Shown piece after piece: positions 40,568-49,922 of a DNA stretch of 64,000 nucleotides (positions are counted from its first letter, which is position 1; each line of letters begins with the position of its first letter). The translations under genes and the position numbers were made by a program. The stretch lies in NCBI GenBank assembly GCA_017643365.1, contig JAEPNO010000005.1, forward strand, positions 124,001 through 188,000, read 5' to 3'. The stretch is from Balneolaceae bacterium (GTDB lineage Bacteria > Bacteroidota > Rhodothermia > Balneolales > Balneolaceae). The notes beneath the pieces are model-generated. The model saw only the letters and a program-made list of their open reading frames with translations. It ran no database searches and was not told where the DNA came from.

Positions 40568-41545
40568 TTAAGGAATGCGCACTTCAAGCAGTTTCGAATC
40601 TGCGCCCGGCACGAGTTCAATACCGGAAATTACGTTTGGGATGAGAATGGAATCGCCCAATTGATAGGTGACTTCTCCATCGCCATATTTGATGCTACCA
40701 TTACCTTGAAGGCACATCAAAATAATGCAGGAATCGAAATCAGAATAATCGCGAGTCTCCTCTTGATTGATGCTCAATTTTCGGGTTACGAAATACTTAC
40801 AATTGCCTATCTCGGTATCGGTGGCTGACTTATCGTAGGCGGTTTTGTACTCATCGTAGTGATTGTAATCAATGGCATCGATGGCTTCTTCCACATGCAG
40901 CTCGCGGCCAACTCCGTTAGCATCTACCCGATCAAAATCGTAAATGCGATAAGTGATATCTGAGGTTTGCTGAATTTCTGCGATTAACAATCCTTTGCCA
41001 ATGGTGTGTACACGTCCGGCCGGGAGGAAAAAAATATCGTCTTTGTTTACCTCTTCCCGATTTAAAAGCTCCATCAGCCTTCCAGAGTTGAAGAATTCGA
41101 GATATTCTTCTTTGGATGTAGCTTTATTAAAGCCAGATATGAGAGTGGCACCTTCATCTGCAGAAACCACGTACCACATCTCCGTTTTTCCGAAAGAGTT
41201 GTGTCTTTGGTCGGCTAATTCATCATCGGGATGTACCTGAATGCTTAGGTCGTCGTTGGCGTCGATGAACTTGATCAAGAGTGGAAATTTATTTCCGAAT
41301 CGCTCAAAAACGGCGTTTCCTATCAAATCACCTTTAAAATCATCAATCAACTCAACCAACGTTTTTCCCTTTAAAGGACCTTCAGCCACAACCGAAATAT
41401 CACCATCAACTCCGGAAATTTCCCACGATTCACCTGCGTTTTCCGAACCACCTGTTGGTTTATCCAGTACAGATTGCAACTTTGTTCCACCCCAAATTTT
41501 GTCTTTTATGATGGGAGTAAACTTTAAGGGATATAACTTTTGCAT
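40568..41545 (-). CDS. manA: Class I mannose-6-phosphate isomerase
   Basis: From the ATG at 41545 the 325-residue protein begins MQKLYPLKFTPIIKDKIWGG, the usual start of this cupin-fold enzyme, and carries the zinc-site motif IQVHPDDE and FLPAGRVHTIG. It interconverts fructose-6-phosphate and mannose-6-phosphate for glycan precursors. An in-frame ATG at 41626 would add 27 residues not expected in the family; neither start has a clear ribosome-binding site, so this choice is not certain. Confidence 0.88.
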   Translation of the reverse strand: MQKLYPLKFTPIIKDKIWGGTKLQSVLDKPTGGSENAGESWEISGVDGDISVVAEGPLKGKTLVELIDDFKGDLIGNAVFERFGNKFPLLIKFIDANDDLSIQVHPDDELADQRHNSFGKTEMWYVVSADEGATLISGFNKATSKEEYLEFFNSGRLMELLNREEVNKDDIFFLPAGRVHTIGKGLLIAEIQQTSDITYRIYDFDRVDANGVGRELHVEEAIDAIDYNHYDEYKTAYDKSATDTEIGNCKYFVTRKLSINQEETRDYSDFDSCIILMCLQGNGSIKYGDGEVTYQLGDSILIPNVISGIELVPGADSKLLEVRIP

Positions 41546-41632
41546 AACTAAAGATCGGTTCTCAGGTAATTTAATTTCAAGCGACTCTGAATTCGCTTTT
41601 AATGGATGTGAAATGTGTTGTTCCATACCGGA

Positions 41633-42577
41633 TTAAGATAATAGCGCGGCAACACACGCTGTATTAACGATGTCTTCCCACGAACAACCTCGGGATAAAT
41701 CCATCATGGGTTTGGCTAGGCCTTGGATTACAGGACCGGTAGCTGTTGCGCCTCCAAGTCGTTCTGTGATTTTGTATCCAATATTTCCGGCGTCGAGGTT
41801 TGGGAAAATGAACACGTTCGCTTTTCCTGCCACCGCTGATCCGGGAGCTTTACGTTGACCAATTTGTTCAATTACCGCAGCATCGAATTGTAGCTCGCCG
41901 TCTATATCTAAATTTGGAGCATTCGATTTTGCCGATTCAAGAGCTTCGGTCACTAATTCAACTCGTTCATGCTTGGCACTTCCTTTGGTTGAAAACGAAA
42001 GCATCGCAACTTTTGGACTCTCACCGGTTAGTGCTTTGTGAGTAGCTGCAGAATCGATGGCAATGGAAGCCAATTGATCTGAAGTAGGATAAGGAACAAC
42101 AGCACAATCGCCATAGGTGAACACTCGACCGTCATCAAAACTCATCAAAAAAGTAGAGGAAACTACATTTGAACCTTCCTTTAGCCCAATCGTTTGAATA
42201 GCAGCACGGAGCACATCTCCGGTCGTTGAAACAGATCCAGCAACAGCTCCATCAGCATCTCCGGCATCAAGCATAGAAGCAGCAAAAAACAAGGGATCTT
42301 TAATTGTTTCAAGGGCTTGTTCTAGCGTAATCCCTTTATGCTTTCGCTTAGCGTAAAAAGCTTCGGCGTATTGCTGCAATTTCGGGTGTGATTCGATTTC
42401 AATTACATCGAGTTTTGTATCAACAGAACTTTTGTTACTCAATAAGATTGTTGTACAAAGATTATTATCAGCCAGAAACTCTGCTGCTTCAATCACCCTC
42501 GGATCACTAGATCGCGGAAAAACAATTTTGGCGTTTTTTTGGGATGCTTTGGTACGAATGCTCTCTATAAAATTCAT
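41633..42577 (-). CDS. pta: Phosphate acetyltransferase (short form)
   Basis: The 314-residue protein is the short, Bacillus-like Pta domain, with KIVFPRSSDPRVIEAAEFL at the start, AGSVSTTGDVLRAAIQTIG, LSFSTKGSA and FIFPNLDAGNIGYK. It converts acetyl-CoA and phosphate to acetyl phosphate. Unusually, ackA is in the same operon but two unrelated genes lie between. It starts two bases after the EamA gene. Confidence 0.95.
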   Translation of the reverse strand: MNFIESIRTKASQKNAKIVFPRSSDPRVIEAAEFLADNNLCTTILLSNKSSVDTKLDVIEIESHPKLQQYAEAFYAKRKHKGITLEQALETIKDPLFFAASMLDAGDADGAVAGSVSTTGDVLRAAIQTIGLKEGSNVVSSTFLMSFDDGRVFTYGDCAVVPYPTSDQLASIAIDSAATHKALTGESPKVAMLSFSTKGSAKHERVELVTEALESAKSNAPNLDIDGELQFDAAVIEQIGQRKAPGSAVAGKANVFIFPNLDAGNIGYKITERLGGATATGPVIQGLAKPMMDLSRGCSWEDIVNTACVAALLS

Positions 42578-42578
42578 G

Positions 42579-43430
42579 CTAAAAGATGAGTAAAACTATT
42601 GCGATTACCGCTGTGATTAAGCCAATAATTTGGTTGCGAGAAAGTACGTCTTTCCAGTAAAAAATGCCCAACAGTGTGCCCAGTAAAACATTGAGAATAT
42701 TTGTTAAAGAGAACACAAGTGCTCCTTCCAGCATTTCAAGTGCTAAAAGAATAAAATACGAGGAGTATAGATTTACTATCCCAACTAAAACCCCATACAA
42801 GACATGCTTTTTGTTAAACGATATCGAGTCTTTAATGACCATATATCCGGTTCCAAGAATAAAGGCACTTAAAAATATTAGTGCTAAAAATGCTTCTTTG
42901 GGCAAGTTTGCGTTGTATTCCTGTTCATATACTTTTAAGAGTACATCTACCAGACCGTTTAGCACAAAGAGTAATATCAGTGAATACGAAAAACGTTTTT
43001 GAATAGCCGCGCCCTTCATTTTTGGCAGAAGTAAGATCAGTGCGATAAAGACAATGATAATTCCAACGTAATTAAAGGTTGAAACGAACTCCTTGTACCA
43101 GAACAAACTTACTATAACCGGCAGCACCAACGACAGCCTCATTGCTGCCACACTAACCCCTACTCCGTTATTATGCAGTGAAAAACTATACAAGAAAAAG
43201 TTGATGATAAATAAGGCTCCCGTAACTAATGCGAACAACAAGGTTGTAGGTTCGGCGGAGTAAATAACCTCAAAGTCTTCAATTTGGGCACCACTTATTA
43301 AGGCGGCGGTAAAATAATTAACCGTAAGAATGGGAATGATGGAGAGCTCTTTATTCCTGGCGAGCTTCAACAAATGGGCAATTGCAATAGAACAACCAAC
43401 ACTTGCCAGGATATAGCTAAAGCCAATCAT
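42579..43430 (-). CDS. EamA/DMT family membrane transporter
   Basis: The 283-residue protein has about ten hydrophobic helices in the two five-helix halves of drug/metabolite transporters. The substrate cannot be told. Its start overlaps the stop of the caspase-like lipoprotein gene by one base, and pta follows after one base, so it is embedded in the acetate operon. Confidence 0.8.
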   Translation of the reverse strand: MIGFSYILASVGCSIAIAHLLKLARNKELSIIPILTVNYFTAALISGAQIEDFEVIYSAEPTTLLFALVTGALFIINFFLYSFSLHNNGVGVSVAAMRLSLVLPVIVSLFWYKEFVSTFNYVGIIIVFIALILLLPKMKGAAIQKRFSYSLILLFVLNGLVDVLLKVYEQEYNANLPKEAFLALIFLSAFILGTGYMVIKDSISFNKKHVLYGVLVGIVNLYSSYFILLALEMLEGALVFSLTNILNVLLGTLLGIFYWKDVLSRNQIIGLITAVIAIVLLIF

Positions 43431-45130
43431 TAATCAATCAAACTGATGCCTGAATCTCCAAAAAACAGGATGTGTTGAGGTTGATTGTGTAGTCGTCGGC
43501 TCGTGTAATCCACATTACGTTGTAGATGATTTACGATGCCGGAAATCGTTGTAGCACCGTTCTTGATGGCATCAGCAATGTAATAACTAAAAATGCTGTG
43601 ACGCTTTTGCTCGCCGGTAGAGCTAGAATAATTCCGTGAACGTTGTGTCTCGGATGAACTCACGATGATCGCAGAGCTAGCATTGTTTTCTAAAATCTGA
43701 TTAGCGAGTGGTTCTATCAATTCTGAATATTCGGTGTCAACGTTATCAATGTCGAGGAGGATAACCAGCTCCTGAACAGGCAAACGAGAAATCCCGCTGA
43801 AAAATGAATTCAGATTGATTTCGCTGGAAGTGCTCCCTCCTGTTCCCATCAACAGCATTTCGCCGTCATCACCACTGGTAACATAGCCTGAGATATAAAT
43901 AACCAATCGCTTTTGAGTTCCCCGCATGTCGTTTGCTAAACGATTGTAGGCCAGCACCAGCTGTTGTTGGTTTTCGATATTTGTAACCGTTCTAAGGTTA
44001 TCATTTCGAAATGAAAGCGCGTTCTCCAAATACGCACTAATGAGCTGAGCGTCTCGTTCAGCGAAATTTCGTTCTGATAATTCACCCTGATACTCCCTAT
44101 TTGCCAGAATGAAGCCATAACTTCGATCGTTTTGTTCAACGAGTGTCGGGATGTCTGATTCCACATCAATATTGCCAAATGGAATGTTGGGAACAGTGAT
44201 TATAGAAAGTTGAGAGGCAAATTCAGTGGGTCGCCAAATAAGATACGCATCCGATTTGGCTACATAAGTTTCTGATATCCCATACAATACTTTATACCAA
44301 AGATCTGTTTCTTCAACAAATCGTAATTGGCTACCAAAAGCTAAATCGGTTAAGATTGTCCGGGATTCCAAAATCGGTTCATCTCTTAAGGCCGTAACTT
44401 CAGTATCAATCACAACAAATTGCTCTAAAAATGATACGATGGGTACAGTGTTTACGTAAATATCGTCGTTGAAATAAACTTCAACAGTGATCACATCATC
44501 GGTTTCGTATTCCGATTCTTCCGGGTTAAAGCTTTCGAGCAAATTTATCGTGAATCGACCATTTCTGTATTCTAAGTCATCCCCAACTGCCACAATTTCC
44601 CCATCATGATACATGGTATACGATACATCGGTGGATACATCCGGTGTCGCACTAACAGTGTCTGTTTCAGTTACCGATCCGGTTCTACGTAACAATCGAA
44701 TTTCACCGGTTGGCGTGGGATCTCCGGTTGGATTCATGTTCAAAAATGAGGTAAGAGAAATCAATCCCGCTGTACCTAATAATGCTTGTTGCGATGCTTT
44801 TGGTTGATCGATCAGAATAGCAGCACCGGCAGCTAGCGATGCACCGCCCAGCCCTAACAATACCGATTTAAAACTTGGGCGATATCGCTGAATGTATCGG
44901 TCGGTTCTTACACGTTGCGTGTATTCAAAAGTATTGGCCGATTTAATTTCGAATTGAATAACCGGATTCTGTGGCGATACATTACCGACCCTTGATAAAA
45001 ACTGATCAGAGGAAATGAGTTCAAAGTCGTTTCTATCAATTTCGTATTGATTTTCGACCACCCATTTAGAGCTGGAACATGCCGAACCGATGAGTAAAAA
45101 CAGAAACAGTAAGTTCCGGAATTGGATCAT
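43430..45130 (-). CDS. Lipoprotein with SH3-like domain and inactive caspase-like (C14) domain
   Basis: The 566-residue protein starts with a lipobox (IGSAC, Cys18), has a hydrophobic patch at about 88-130, a bacterial SH3-like segment at about 240-300 (TEVTALRDEP, WYKVLYG), and from about 335 a caspase/metacaspase-type domain: YGFILANREYQG, AERDAQLISAYLEN, RLVIYISGYV, ELVILLDIDN. The catalytic histidine of the usual SGHG is Tyr416 and the catalytic cysteine of the usual DAC is Asp462, so peptidase activity is unlikely. Its start overlaps the ackA stop by four bases. Confidence 0.7.
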   Translation of the reverse strand: MIQFRNLLFLFLLIGSACSSSKWVVENQYEIDRNDFELISSDQFLSRVGNVSPQNPVIQFEIKSANTFEYTQRVRTDRYIQRYRPSFKSVLLGLGGASLAAGAAILIDQPKASQQALLGTAGLISLTSFLNMNPTGDPTPTGEIRLLRRTGSVTETDTVSATPDVSTDVSYTMYHDGEIVAVGDDLEYRNGRFTINLLESFNPEESEYETDDVITVEVYFNDDIYVNTVPIVSFLEQFVVIDTEVTALRDEPILESRTILTDLAFGSQLRFVEETDLWYKVLYGISETYVAKSDAYLIWRPTEFASQLSIITVPNIPFGNIDVESDIPTLVEQNDRSYGFILANREYQGELSERNFAERDAQLISAYLENALSFRNDNLRTVTNIENQQQLVLAYNRLANDMRGTQKRLVIYISGYVTSGDDGEMLLMGTGGSTSSEINLNSFFSGISRLPVQELVILLDIDNVDTEYSELIEPLANQILENNASSAIIVSSSETQRSRNYSSSTGEQKRHSIFSYYIADAIKNGATTISGIVNHLQRNVDYTSRRLHNQPQHILFFGDSGISLID

Positions 45131-46341
45131 GCCCAGGGAGTTTGTTTTGAAGCTAGCGCAATTTTAGCCGAATCGATGGCTATAACCAATTCCTCGTTGG
45201 TAGGAATCACCATCACTTCTACATTTGAGTCGTTGGTTGATATTACAGTATTTCCACGAGTTGCATTGCGATCTGCATCAATTTTTACGCCTGCGTATTG
45301 CATGTCTTTTAGGATCAACTCGCGAATTTTAGACGAATTTTCGCCTATTCCACCGGTAAAGATGATAGCATCCACACCATTCATGGCTGCGATGTAAGCA
45401 CCGATATATTTCTTAGCTCGGTAGCAAAATACATCAATAGCTTCCTGGCAACGGCGATCACCGTTTTCAGCTTCTTCAAGCAGATCACGCATATCGCCGG
45501 CATAACCACTAAGACCCAGCAATCCCGAATGTTTATTCAACAATGCATGCACATTAGCCAGCGAAAGTTCTTCTTTTTCGATTAAATAAAACATGATGGA
45601 GGGATCGATATCGCCACTTCGGGTCCCCATTACTAAGCCTTCAAGCGGCGTAAATCCCATACTTGTATCGATAGACAATCCGTCTTTAATGGCTGTGATT
45701 GATCCACCATTGCCTAAGTGACACGTAATAATCTTTGTACCATCTTTCGATTTACCCGACTCCTTATAATACTGTCGGCTCACATAATAGTGGCTGGTTC
45801 CATGAAAGCCGTAACGTCTGATTTTATATCGTCGATAAAGTCGATTTGGGATTCCATACAAGAACGCATGTTGCGGAATGGAGTGATGAAAAGCGGTATC
45901 AAAAACTGCTACGTGAGGCACATTCGGCAAATGCTTTTTCGCAGCTCTAATCCCCTGCAAGTTTGGGGGATTGTGAAGCGGGGCAATATCGAAAGCAGCC
46001 TGAATTGCTTCTTCCACGTCTTCATCGATCAAAACCGAATCTTTGAAAGTTTCGCCGCCATGAACTACTCGATGTCCTACGGCTTCAATTTCATCCAAAG
46101 AGTGTAAATAATCATTGTCGGCAGCGATTAACAACTCCATAATGGTTTTTAAAGCCGCTGCATGATTGTCTAATGCAATCGTTTTTTTGATGGGCTTCTC
46201 ACCCTTAAACTCTTGCTTTACAATAGACGTAACCGCACCAATCCGCTCAACCAATCCCTTGCACAAAGTCTCTCTATTCTCTGTGTCGATTAATTGATAT
46301 TTAATAGACGAACTGCCGCAGTTTATTACAAAAATCTTCAT
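45127..46341 (-). CDS. ackA: Acetate kinase
   Basis: The 404-residue ASKHA kinase has NCGSSSIKYQL at residues 7-17, VAVFDTAFHHSIP, GFHGTSHYYV, HLGNGGSI, and FTGGIGENS. It makes ATP and acetate from acetyl phosphate, together with Pta. It begins two bases after the barrel protein gene and overlaps the following lipoprotein gene by four, so it is probably translationally coupled to it. Confidence 0.97.
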   Translation of the reverse strand: MKIFVINCGSSSIKYQLIDTENRETLCKGLVERIGAVTSIVKQEFKGEKPIKKTIALDNHAAALKTIMELLIAADNDYLHSLDEIEAVGHRVVHGGETFKDSVLIDEDVEEAIQAAFDIAPLHNPPNLQGIRAAKKHLPNVPHVAVFDTAFHHSIPQHAFLYGIPNRLYRRYKIRRYGFHGTSHYYVSRQYYKESGKSKDGTKIITCHLGNGGSITAIKDGLSIDTSMGFTPLEGLVMGTRSGDIDPSIMFYLIEKEELSLANVHALLNKHSGLLGLSGYAGDMRDLLEEAENGDRRCQEAIDVFCYRAKKYIGAYIAAMNGVDAIIFTGGIGENSSKIRELILKDMQYAGVKIDADRNATRGNTVISTNDSNVEVMVIPTNEELVIAIDSAKIALASKQTPWA

Positions 46342-46343
46342 GA

Positions 46344-47642
46344 CTAAAAATTAAAGATGGCTCCGAAACCAATCACGTTTCTAAATTTAAAATTACTCTC
46401 GTTGTTCATGGTTGATGAAAGCCAAAATGGAATATCATATCGGACAAAAACGCCCCGATCTTTACCTAAATAATCAGGAATGTTGATCGAAAATTGAAAT
46501 CCAACACCGGCATCTGCCAACCATTGTTCTGATTCGAAGACACTTTCAACTTTAGATGGGTCCATAGCAGGGAAAAGCTCTCTATTTGGATCGTAGATCA
46601 CGCTGCTACCTTTTCCTCTACTAACATCAAAAAATGTATACGATCTGAACTCAATCAGGTCGCCAAGATATTTGATGCGTGTTAATTTATTATGAAGAGG
46701 GTTCGGAAACTCAATCTCTGCGTTAAAAGCAATTATCTGATAGTGTAAAGGAAATTCGAAAAATCCACCTTCCGTTTTCTCTACTTGTTCAAGCAAATCC
46801 GACATATACGATTGATAGCCTCGTAAATTTGCCCCTCCCTCAAAATGAATGAATCCGGCGTTAAGCCAAGGCTCTGAAATGGTGCCGTCTGCCCTAGAAA
46901 ATCCATACCACATCCAAGATTGAGGTGATCCGTTGGTTGCTAAATATTTGAACTCGGTATTGGCTAATTCTGAAGTGTATCCTGTGAAATTTCTTAATCG
47001 AAGCTTTACATCATCTGAAAATTTGATCACATAATTAAGTTCGAGACTCGCATTCGTAAAAGCGATAGTATTCGGCTCAACATTACGTTGAAGGGTGATA
47101 TCCGCAAAAAACTGACTGTTTTCAAACTTTTCGCTAATCAAAATGTTAGTTCCTATCATGGTTTTCCAACCCTGTTTCCACAAATAACGGTAAGGCTGAT
47201 AATCAACCTCAAAGTGCCCTTGTTTTGATGCAAATACCGAAGCTTCGATATAATCAAGTTCTTGAAAACCGCGCTGCCAGCGTTTGTTTAGTTGTATTCG
47301 ATGGAATGAATAGCCTGTTCGAATCGAAGATATTAACTGAACACTTCCCTCATTCATGTAGGAACTTATAGCCGGAATCGGATTCGTATAATCGAGATAG
47401 TAACTCACCGGAAGATCCGGGAATTTAGTACCGAGCCAGATTCCCGCATCAATTCGGTGCGGACCGTCTTTAAAGGTTCCTTGCATTTCGCCCAAAAACC
47501 GAGCGCCTAACCGAACGCCATCCACCGAGTTAAACCACGCATCCGGATAAATAGAAAGCTCATACGGCTGTGCTTTCGTAGTTGTGGATAATAAACCGGA
47601 AGAAATCAGAATGAGAAACGCTATTAAAGCTCTATGTGCCAC
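46344..47642 (-). CDS. Probable outer-membrane beta-barrel protein
   Basis: From a GTG at 47642 the protein is 432 residues with a signal peptide (ALIAFLILISSGLL, cleavage near TKAQ), repeated amphipathic strands with alternating aromatic residues, and a terminal phenylalanine (FGAIFNF) as in barrel proteins. The longer frame from 47747 would add 35 polar residues ahead of the signal peptide and lies inside the Nudix gene, so it is rejected; the GTG overlaps the Nudix stop by 19 bases. No specific family is recognised. Confidence 0.68.
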   Translation of the reverse strand: MAHRALIAFLILISSGLLSTTTKAQPYELSIYPDAWFNSVDGVRLGARFLGEMQGTFKDGPHRIDAGIWLGTKFPDLPVSYYLDYTNPIPAISSYMNEGSVQLISSIRTGYSFHRIQLNKRWQRGFQELDYIEASVFASKQGHFEVDYQPYRYLWKQGWKTMIGTNILISEKFENSQFFADITLQRNVEPNTIAFTNASLELNYVIKFSDDVKLRLRNFTGYTSELANTEFKYLATNGSPQSWMWYGFSRADGTISEPWLNAGFIHFEGGANLRGYQSYMSDLLEQVEKTEGGFFEFPLHYQIIAFNAEIEFPNPLHNKLTRIKYLGDLIEFRSYTFFDVSRGKGSSVIYDPNRELFPAMDPSKVESVFESEQWLADAGVGFQFSINIPDYLGKDRGVFVRYDIPFWLSSTMNNESNFKFRNVIGFGAIFNF

Positions 47643-48073
47643 TCGGGTAGAATTTGTTGGTTTCGTAACAACTGATCTGTTAGCCGAATCAATCGTTTTT
47701 GTTCCGGCCAGGCTATCATAGTATCGATTTCGGTGACCTTTACCCAACGGTATTCGGTGTGCTCATCGTCGAGGTTGATGGAGGCAGAATCGGGTATTTC
47801 GGCAGCAAAAGCAGGTATTTGATGAATTTGATCTAACGAAGCCTCGTAAAAGGTATTCACAGATGGAATAGTCCAAAAAACAGATGGAAAAACATCTAGC
47901 TCTTCTTTAAGCTCGCGAAGTGCTGCCTGCCAGTATGCTTCGTTAGCTTCCACTTTTCCACCAACCATGCGCCATTGATTAGCATAAATTTTCTTTTTGG
48001 CACGTAGTAACAGCAAAAACTCCGGAATTCCGGAGTTTAATCTATATATATAGACATCGATGAGTTTTTTCAT
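47624..48073 (-). CDS. Nudix hydrolase
   Basis: The 149-residue protein has a Nudix box GGKVEANEAYWQAALREL plus KEELDV, which fits GX5EX7REUXEE, with the last glycine replaced. Nudix enzymes hydrolyse nucleoside diphosphate-linked compounds; the substrate is unknown, and the layout is like NUDIX pyrophosphohydrolases of dATP type. It lies 17 bases after greA and its 3' end overlaps the start of the barrel gene. Confidence 0.87.
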   Translation of the reverse strand: MKKLIDVYIYRLNSGIPEFLLLLRAKKKIYANQWRMVGGKVEANEAYWQAALRELKEELDVFPSVFWTIPSVNTFYEASLDQIHQIPAFAAEIPDSASINLDDEHTEYRWVKVTEIDTMIAWPEQKRLIRLTDQLLRNQQILPEWHIEL

Positions 48074-48090
48074 CGCGAATGCATTACAAA

Positions 48091-48564
48091 TTATATTTCG
48101 ATCTTCTTGATCTCAAGCTCTAGGGTGCCGGCCGGAACGGTTACTTCTACCGATTCGCCAATTTCTTTACCAAGCAGCGCTTTACCAATCGGCGAATCCA
48201 CGCTGATTTTCCCAGCCTTAAAATCTGCTTCGTTTGCTGAAACTAAAGTGTACTGCATCTCTTTATTCATCTTTTTATTTAAGATGGTCACTTTCGTAAG
48301 CACTCTCACTTTCGATAAATCTAGATCTTTTGCATCAATGATGCGGGCATTCGCCAAGATGTCTTCTAATTTAGTTATGCGGTCTTCCATGTGACCTTGC
48401 GCCTCTTTAGCAGCATCGTATTCGGCATTTTCACTCAAATCCCCTTTTGCACGTGCTTCGGCAATATCGGCAGCCACTTCGCGTCGTCCCCTGGTTTTCA
48501 AATCTTTTAGCTCAGCATCAAGCTTATCATAACCTTCTTGCGACAAATATTGAACTTTACTCAT
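48091..48564 (-). CDS. greA: Transcription elongation factor GreA
   Basis: The 157-residue protein has the GreA N-terminal coiled coil (YLSQEGYDKLDAELKDLKTRGRREVAADIAEARAKGDLSENAEYDAAKE) shortened here to its core motif GDLSENAEYDAAKE at about residues 46-59, and a C-terminal FKBP-like domain. It rescues backtracked RNA polymerase by stimulating transcript cleavage. It begins after a terminator that isolates it from the MFS gene upstream. Confidence 0.95.
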   Translation of the reverse strand: MSKVQYLSQEGYDKLDAELKDLKTRGRREVAADIAEARAKGDLSENAEYDAAKEAQGHMEDRITKLEDILANARIIDAKDLDLSKVRVLTKVTILNKKMNKEMQYTLVSANEADFKAGKISVDSPIGKALLGKEIGESVEVTVPAGTLELEIKKIEI

Positions 48565-48690: not shown

Positions 48691-49922
48691 TTAATTAGCC
48701 GTTTGGACTTTCCATTTTCGCATCACTAAGTATGCACCCACTAATGAAATGGCACATAAAAGAGAACCTGCAACGAACGCAGCACCCGGAAGCACAAATG
48801 GTGCTTGATCGGAAGTAAAATATCCAAATAAGCCGGTCATCATAGGTGGACCAATAATCGCTGTTAAGCTGATCAAACTGGTGAGTGCGCCCTGTAATTC
48901 GCCTTGTTGATTGTTCTCAACGCGTTTGAGATGATACCTTGCAAAGCAGGTCCTGCAAATCCGCCTAGAGCAAATGGAGCAATCATCACCAAAATCACCC
49001 AACCGCTGGGAGCAAACGCAAAGCCTAGAAATCCAACCATGTAGAAAATCAAACCGATATACACCGATTTCTGTTCGCCCCATCTTGGAATAACCACTCT
49101 TGTTAATCCACCTTGGACTATGGCCACGCAGATCCCAACAATGCCCAACGAAAAGCCAACCATAGCTTCGTTCCAATCAAATCGGAACATGGTGAAGTAC
49201 GTCCATGTACTTTGGGTGGCGTGATGCGAGAGATACAAAATGAAATAGATGACTACCAATCCCGAAATTGCTGGAAACTTCTTCACTTGAAGTAACGATC
49301 CTAGCGGGTTCGCTCGCTTCCAATTAAATGGCCGTCGGTTTTCTTCGGATAATGATTCCGGTAAAATGAAATATCCGTACGCACAGTTGATAAAAGCTAA
49401 GGCTGCGGAAGCAAAAAATGGAATTCTTGCGCCGTATTCACCCAACAACCCACCAATTACCGGACCTAAAATAAATCCCATCCCAAAAGCCGCGCCGATT
49501 AACCCAAAATTTTGGGCTCGTTTTTCAGGCTCGCTGATGTCGGCAATGTACGCTGTTGCTGTTGTGTGAGATGCTCCAAAAATTCCGGCTACAATTCGTG
49601 CACCGAACAACCAGTAAATAGTTGGTGCAAAGCCTGTAATGATATAATCAATACCAAAGCCGGCTAAGGATAGTAAAAGTACCGGACGTCGACCAAACCG
49701 ATCGCTTAAACCGCCCATGATTGGCGCGCAAAGAAATTGCATCCCTGCATACACAAACATGAGCCAACCGCCATAAATAGCAGCTTTTCCGAGTCCTTCG
49801 CCTGTTAATTCCATGATAAGTGCTGGAATTACAGGTATAATGATTCCCAGCCCGATGGTATAGAGTACCACGGTGATGAATATAAAAGTAAGGGCTGCTT
49901 TTCTGGGTTCTTTCTTGCTTAT
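48691..49922 (-). pseudogene. TetA-like MFS transporter, frameshifted
   Basis: The sequence encodes a full-length MFS drug-transporter-type protein split over two frames. Frame one runs from about 49922 with SKKEPRKAALTFIFI, GLSDRFGRRPVLL and the following helices to LQGIISN, then meets a stop. Frame two resumes at VENNQQGELQGALTSL and continues to a normal C-terminus. One missing base near 48923-48925 (AACGCGTT on the minus strand, where AACCGCGTT would restore the frame) joins them into about 410 residues. The expected ATG is ATA at 49922-49920; the first usable start would be GTG at 49871. Real decay or sequence error cannot be separated here. Confidence 0.85.

Follow-up and report, generated by a model that had tools for sequence, protein, structure and literature searches.

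A caspase-fold lipoprotein without the catalytic Cys in the order Balneolales

What does a caspase fold do once it is unable to cut? A locus of a Balneolaceae bacterium offers a clean natural case for this question. The window, that is the whole stretch of DNA analysed (64,000 nucleotides; GCA_017643365.1, contig JAEPNO010000005.1, positions 124,001 to 188,000), carries on its minus strand a single gene (43430..45130, ATG start, 566 aa) encoding a caspase-fold lipoprotein without the catalytic His and Cys. An earlier note, made from the sequence alone, had read the product as a surface- or periplasm-facing pseudopeptidase encoded between two genes of the acetate pathway. We examined its fold, its active site, its relatives and its neighbours.

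The gene and its caspase fold

The caspase-like gene lies in a tight minus-strand string. As the earlier note had stated, it overlaps the upstream ackA (acetate kinase, 45127..46341, minus strand; PF00871, TIGR00016) by four bases, and is followed, with a 1-base overlap, by an EamA-family transporter gene (eamA, 42579..43430, minus strand; PF00892) and then by pta (phosphate acetyltransferase, 41633..42577, minus strand; PF01515, TIGR00651). Upstream of ackA, the same string includes a gene for a putative outer-membrane protein (omp, 46344..47642, minus strand) with homologues across the order, whose GTG start at 47642 overlaps the end of a nudix gene (47624-48073, minus strand). The nudix gene, greA (48091-48564, minus strand) and a manA-like gene (40568-41626, minus strand) were named from a reading of their translations. 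The order is greA, nudix, omp, ackA, caspase-like gene, eamA, pta, manA-like, with neighbours standing 1 to 17 bases apart or overlapping by 1, 4 or 19 bases, and the string is likely to be one transcript; a scan of it for promoters and terminators remained at chance level. A phage or defence origin was rejected, as searches against PHROGs and PADLOC gave no match. Outside the string, an MFS transporter gene (48691-49871, minus strand) is broken into two ORFs whose frames overlap (48873-49871 and 48691-49176), indicating a frameshift near 48.9 kb, either real or a sequencing error.

The C14 caspase-fold domain was placed at residues 336-566 (43433..44125, minus strand) by Pfam, Foldseek and VIA-align. 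The Pfam Peptidase_C14 profile scored 26.4 bits in the window protein (cut-off 21.4, span 340-551) and matched 24 of the 44 family members; a sequence search of the caspase-like protein against solved structures found nothing significant. An AlphaFold model of the whole protein, built from 44 orthologues, had a mean pLDDT of 89. Its top PDB matches in Foldseek were MALT1, caspase-9 and a metacaspase, and in VIA-align residues 331-566 reached Z 21.1 to Arabidopsis metacaspase 4 and 19-20.4 to caspases, with the caspase alignments extending through residue 566. In this comparison of a predicted model with solved structures, the caspases and metacaspases 6w8r, 4hq0 and 3uo8 have their fold in common with residues 331-566 (Z 20-21), whereas their identity to the window domain is 10-15% and the native enzymes carry the active dyad. 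The model thus makes a strong case for a C14 caspase fold of residues 331-566. The four caspase strand segments assigned in the earlier note lie where it had put them, and the check that it proposed, structure prediction followed by a structural search against C14 domains, returned a caspase-like fold (Z about 20).

Loss of the catalytic dyad

The His-Cys dyad required of an active C14 peptidase is missing from the window protein. Alignment to active homologues placed Tyr416 (43883..43885, minus strand; SGYV) at the position of the catalytic His, and the acidic pair Asp460-Ile461-Asp462 (43745..43753, minus strand; LLDID) where these homologues have Asp-Ala-Cys, confirming both substitutions read in the earlier note. 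Several His residues are left in the C14 domain; it contains no Cys, and the sole Cys of the mature protein is the lipidated one. In 39 of 43 members the aligned positions of the domain were all free of Cys, and 38 of 43 had none except the lipidated one. Judged from these residues, the window protein is presumably inactive as a peptidase.

The first alignment comprised 44 orthologues, and the site could be read in 43 of them. Tyr occupied position 416 in 23, His in 8, Phe in 5 and other residues in the rest; position 462 was never Cys; and position 460 was Asp in all. A wider search matched 107 of 129 genomes of the order (the matches include one foreign caspase domain and one contig-end fragment), and the dyad sites were read in 104 orthologues. 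Position 462 was Cys in none of them, Asp or Glu in 87, and Gln, Ser, Asn, Phe or another residue in 17. Position 416 was His in 17, all of family f3, and Tyr or Phe in 76; it took up K, A, S, Q or I in family f5, varying freely. Position 460 was acidic in 104 of 104. An isolated mutation is ruled out by these counts, and close homologues with His and Cys in place, which the earlier note had named as the finding that would speak against it, did not appear.

The gene is functional and under strong purifying selection: compared with that of the congener (87% identical), it had a pN of 0.09 with synonymous sites saturated, and two other close pairs had 0.12-0.13. Stop-free open frames throughout, together with the pN of 0.09, rule out a sequencing error or a pseudogene. 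The designation pseudopeptidase is therefore supported by the modelled caspase fold, by the absence of the Cys from 104 orthologues and by this selection. The gene is missing from the entire family f4 and from some reduced or other genomes, indicating that its function is dispensable.

The window protein counts as a pseudo-orthocaspase under the definition in PMC6426788, which asks for a prokaryotic p20 domain where one dyad residue or both have been substituted, and as a kind it is already known. In the bacterial pseudo-orthocaspases of Klemencic et al. 2019, the Cys was replaced mostly by Ser, Ala or Asn; the proteins were concentrated in Alphaproteobacteria and Cyanobacteria, and only 10 of 1078 Bacteroidetes sequences belonged to them (PMC6426788). 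They resemble the window protein in the C14/p20 domain with a substituted dyad, in the Tyr that is common at the His position and in the S1 acids retained, and differ from it in that here Asp or Glu replaces the Cys, throughout an order, and the protein is a lipoprotein that also has an Ig-like part and an SH3 part. A dead caspase in most genomes of one Bacteroidota lineage contrasts with the great rarity reported for Bacteroidetes (PMC6426788). SyOC of Synechocystis PCC 6803, whose knock-out raised oxidative stress tolerance, is likewise a pseudo-orthocaspase, from another lineage and with no lipid anchor described in its abstract (PMC7889975). No paper on both Balneolales and caspases was among the best matches of a search of the open literature, where an earlier notice is still possible; what appears to be new is a lipoprotein family, spread across the order, in which an acid takes the place of the Cys; we did not find such a family described.

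A search of 296 genomes of the phylum found no full-length relatives outside the order; the relatives with names belong to the Balneolaceae (Balneola, Gracilimonas, Fodinibius), and the Balneolales, the order carrying the lipoprotein, are mostly environmental bacteria. The closest other C14 proteins of the phylum, and the other C14 proteins read inside the order, kept Gly-His-Gly and, in nearly all cases, Asp-Ala-Cys (one had Asp-Val-Cys). Such intact-dyad Bacteroidota proteins (the L075 and L076 type, L075 being from the same family) share the C14 domain with the window protein, some of them the DIE..IP lead-in, and most of the close ones a C-terminal RRL..QTP-type motif; they differ in their GHG and DACFSG, an intact dyad. 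One of them (L075:2326-3606, minus strand; SGHG and DACFSG intact) is a separate lipoprotein-like C14 protein.

Ten relatives from outside the family, with GHG-type and DAC motifs and, in some of the closest, the DIE..IP lead-in, were placed in a tree. The family formed one side of a branch separating it from these ten intact C14 domains (SH-aLRT 95), in a tree whose root is uncertain, as is the long L044 branch. On this tree the loss of the Cys needs one event and the presence of the His two changes. A single loss of the Cys with the His surviving in one branch hints at the order of events: in the simplest history, the Cys would have been lost first, to an acid, and the His later, in lines other than f3. 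The Cys was lost once, long ago, and the protein has been kept under selection since, probably for binding rather than proteolysis.

Lipid anchor, N-terminal part and SH3 segment

Residues 1-18 (45077..45130, minus strand) form a signal peptide ending in the lipidated Cys18, which was present in every orthologue whose N-terminus could be read. The lipobox noticed earlier is real, if loose: several orthologues deviate at -3, where the window protein has Gly. The residues +2 to +5 after the Cys were Ser, Thr, Ala, Gly, Lys, Arg or Gln and never acidic in the orthologues read. The surface-export signal of Bacteroidota lipoproteins, proven only in other members of the phylum, is K-(D/E)2 and its relatives after the Cys (PMC5080379). 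The lack of an acidic signal of this kind leaves the surface half of the earlier proposal unsupported and makes its other half likelier, so that the protein is probably an outer-membrane lipoprotein of the inner leaflet, facing the periplasm.

Residues 18-235 (44426..45079, minus strand) were modelled by AlphaFold as very long beta strands, an inserted helical hairpin (87-130) and an Ig-like sandwich; modelled alone, they gave a pLDDT of 93.5, with three strands of about 30 residues, the helical hairpin and more strands. The Ig-like matches were weak (Z 8.6 at best and mostly 6-7.7; nothing in Foldseek at E 0.001). A SlyB-like membrane hairpin is not claimed for the helices at 87-130 (Foldseek E 0.99, probability 0.11; hydropathy only moderate in many members). 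A bacterial SH3 segment follows at residues 236-300 (44231..44425, minus strand), placed by PF08239 in family members and by strands in the model. The SH3-like segment of the earlier note holds at the family level, SH3_3 (PF08239) matching 10 of 44 members (best E 4.9e-7) and finding no match in the window protein itself.

The acidic pocket and the neighbouring genes

Positions 460 and 462 were the only columns of the C14 domain with at least 80% acidic residues among 43 members, and Arg545 and Gln552 were invariant (43/43). By our own mapping of the motifs, we take Asp460 to be the Asp of the Asp-x-Cys motif, equivalent to Asp211 of TbMCA2, and Asp360 to be equivalent to its Asp95. Most members of the window's family retain Asp360, and families f3 and f5 have Ser or Thr there, indicating that the pocket is not uniform. 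Asp95 and Asp211 of TbMCA2 are reported to belong to the S1 pocket, where they receive a basic P1 residue, and to be retained in other pseudo-orthocaspases (PMC6426788, PMC4357240). A specificity pocket retained while the nucleophile has become an acid has the look of a site that would bind a cation or a basic segment.

The reading we favour, with about an even chance of being right, is that of a pseudo-orthocaspase on the outer membrane, probably facing the periplasm, whose ligand, basic or cationic, is bound and left uncut. Attachment to the membrane would come from the lipid together with the long-stranded N-terminal domain; the SH3 segment would probably contact a peptide or the peptidoglycan, and the caspase-fold domain would act as a scaffold, binding a partner without cleavage. 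Asp460 would keep the S1 acid for a basic P1, with Asp462 as a second acid in place of the nucleophile; since both acids are there, the pair would most likely hold either a cation or a partner protein by a segment that bears Lys or Arg. More tentatively, the caspase fold may have been turned once, via Asp-x-Asp/Glu, into an outer-membrane receptor or cation-binding module kept by the whole order.

Less probably, the caspase-fold domain is a mere structural spacer, and the lipid anchor, the N-terminal domain and the SH3 segment do the work. In conservation, the C14 domain falls slightly behind the N-terminal part (mean identity 0.295 vs 0.351, with the SH3 segment also slightly ahead of C14), and position 416 drifts freely in f5, as a spacer would allow. 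The acid at 460 in 104 of 104 orthologues and the invariant Arg545 and Gln552 exceed the needs of a spacer, though they could be structural, and we met no instance, outside any dedicated search, of the C14 part being lost with the rest kept.

It is unlikely that the pocket was rebuilt so that the Asp-x-Asp/Glu pair holds a cation or forms a new hydrolase centre. This idea draws on an acid pair kept precisely where the nucleophile used to be, in contrast to the reported replacements by Ser, Ala and Asn (PMC6426788); against it, no further acid of the C14 domain is kept at 80%, and position 462 is non-acidic in 17 of 104 orthologues.

That the protein senses or regulates the acetate (AckA-Pta) pathway seems improbable. 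Among the first 44 loci, ackA was upstream of the caspase-like gene in 23, absent from this slot in 19 and unreadable in 2, and pta was downstream in 34. The ackA, caspase-like gene, pta order occurs in families f1, f2, f3 and f5, indicating that it is probably ancestral, yet unstable; this recurrence and the tight overlaps speak for a link to the pathway, as does the acs gene that some ackA-less f3 genomes have on the upstream side of the caspase-like gene. In five f3 loci (L036, L037, L039, L041, L042), the acetyl-CoA synthetase gene lies between omp and the caspase-like gene, in the usual place of ackA; an MFS gene accompanies it in L037. Immediately before the caspase-like gene of L015, at L015:1127-1339, lies a short ackA remnant (39% over residues 1-75), as though ackA had decayed there.

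On the other side, G015, G017 and G026 (96-98% complete) retain the caspase-like gene and no ackA was found in them, and in others ackA was located elsewhere; family f4 has ackA and omp without the caspase-like gene. The neighbours belong to a longer string (greA, nudix, omp, ackA, eamA, pta, manA, suf), the make-up of which changes from genome to genome. AckA and Pta are cytoplasmic, whereas the caspase-like protein is a lipoprotein. Neighbours present without the caspase-like gene, and the reverse, indicate that it has no obligate partner among them and that the acetate link is loose at best; an acetate-pathway role is weakly supported. The flanking by ackA and pta that the earlier note described as an operon context is true of the window and is not kept (ackA off the slot in 19 of 42), and of the two features that it wanted surveyed, the Tyr/Asp pair and the ackA-pta location, the first proved to be part of an order-wide absence of the Cys (Cys462 in 0 of 104) and the second did not last.

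In animals, the dead caspase domains of c-FLIP can pair with an active caspase and control it. Such pairing is very improbable here, and mostly refuted for the window's genome: no other C14 match was found in it, another C14 protein was present in only three of the 26 gene-carrying genomes searched, and canonical C14 proteins, scoring 69-129 bits, would have been detected. That the protein is still an active protease, its dyad misaligned or replaced by another His or Cys, is barely credible in spite of the remaining His residues, the C14 domain being Cys-free in the window protein and most members, and cysteine peptidase activity of the window protein is, on its residues, practically refuted.

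Strict pairing with omp is ruled out, genus g5 having the caspase-like gene without omp and family f4 omp without the caspase-like gene; in G004 there is an omp-eamA-pta run without the caspase-like gene. The omp product had no Pfam, NCBIfam or PDB match, and it is not an Omp85 protein, being absent from the eight Omp85 matches of the genome. The family of the 46344-47642 product is order-wide, with 27 invariant columns in 37 members, and omp paralogues occur two in tandem at L086:4032-6729.
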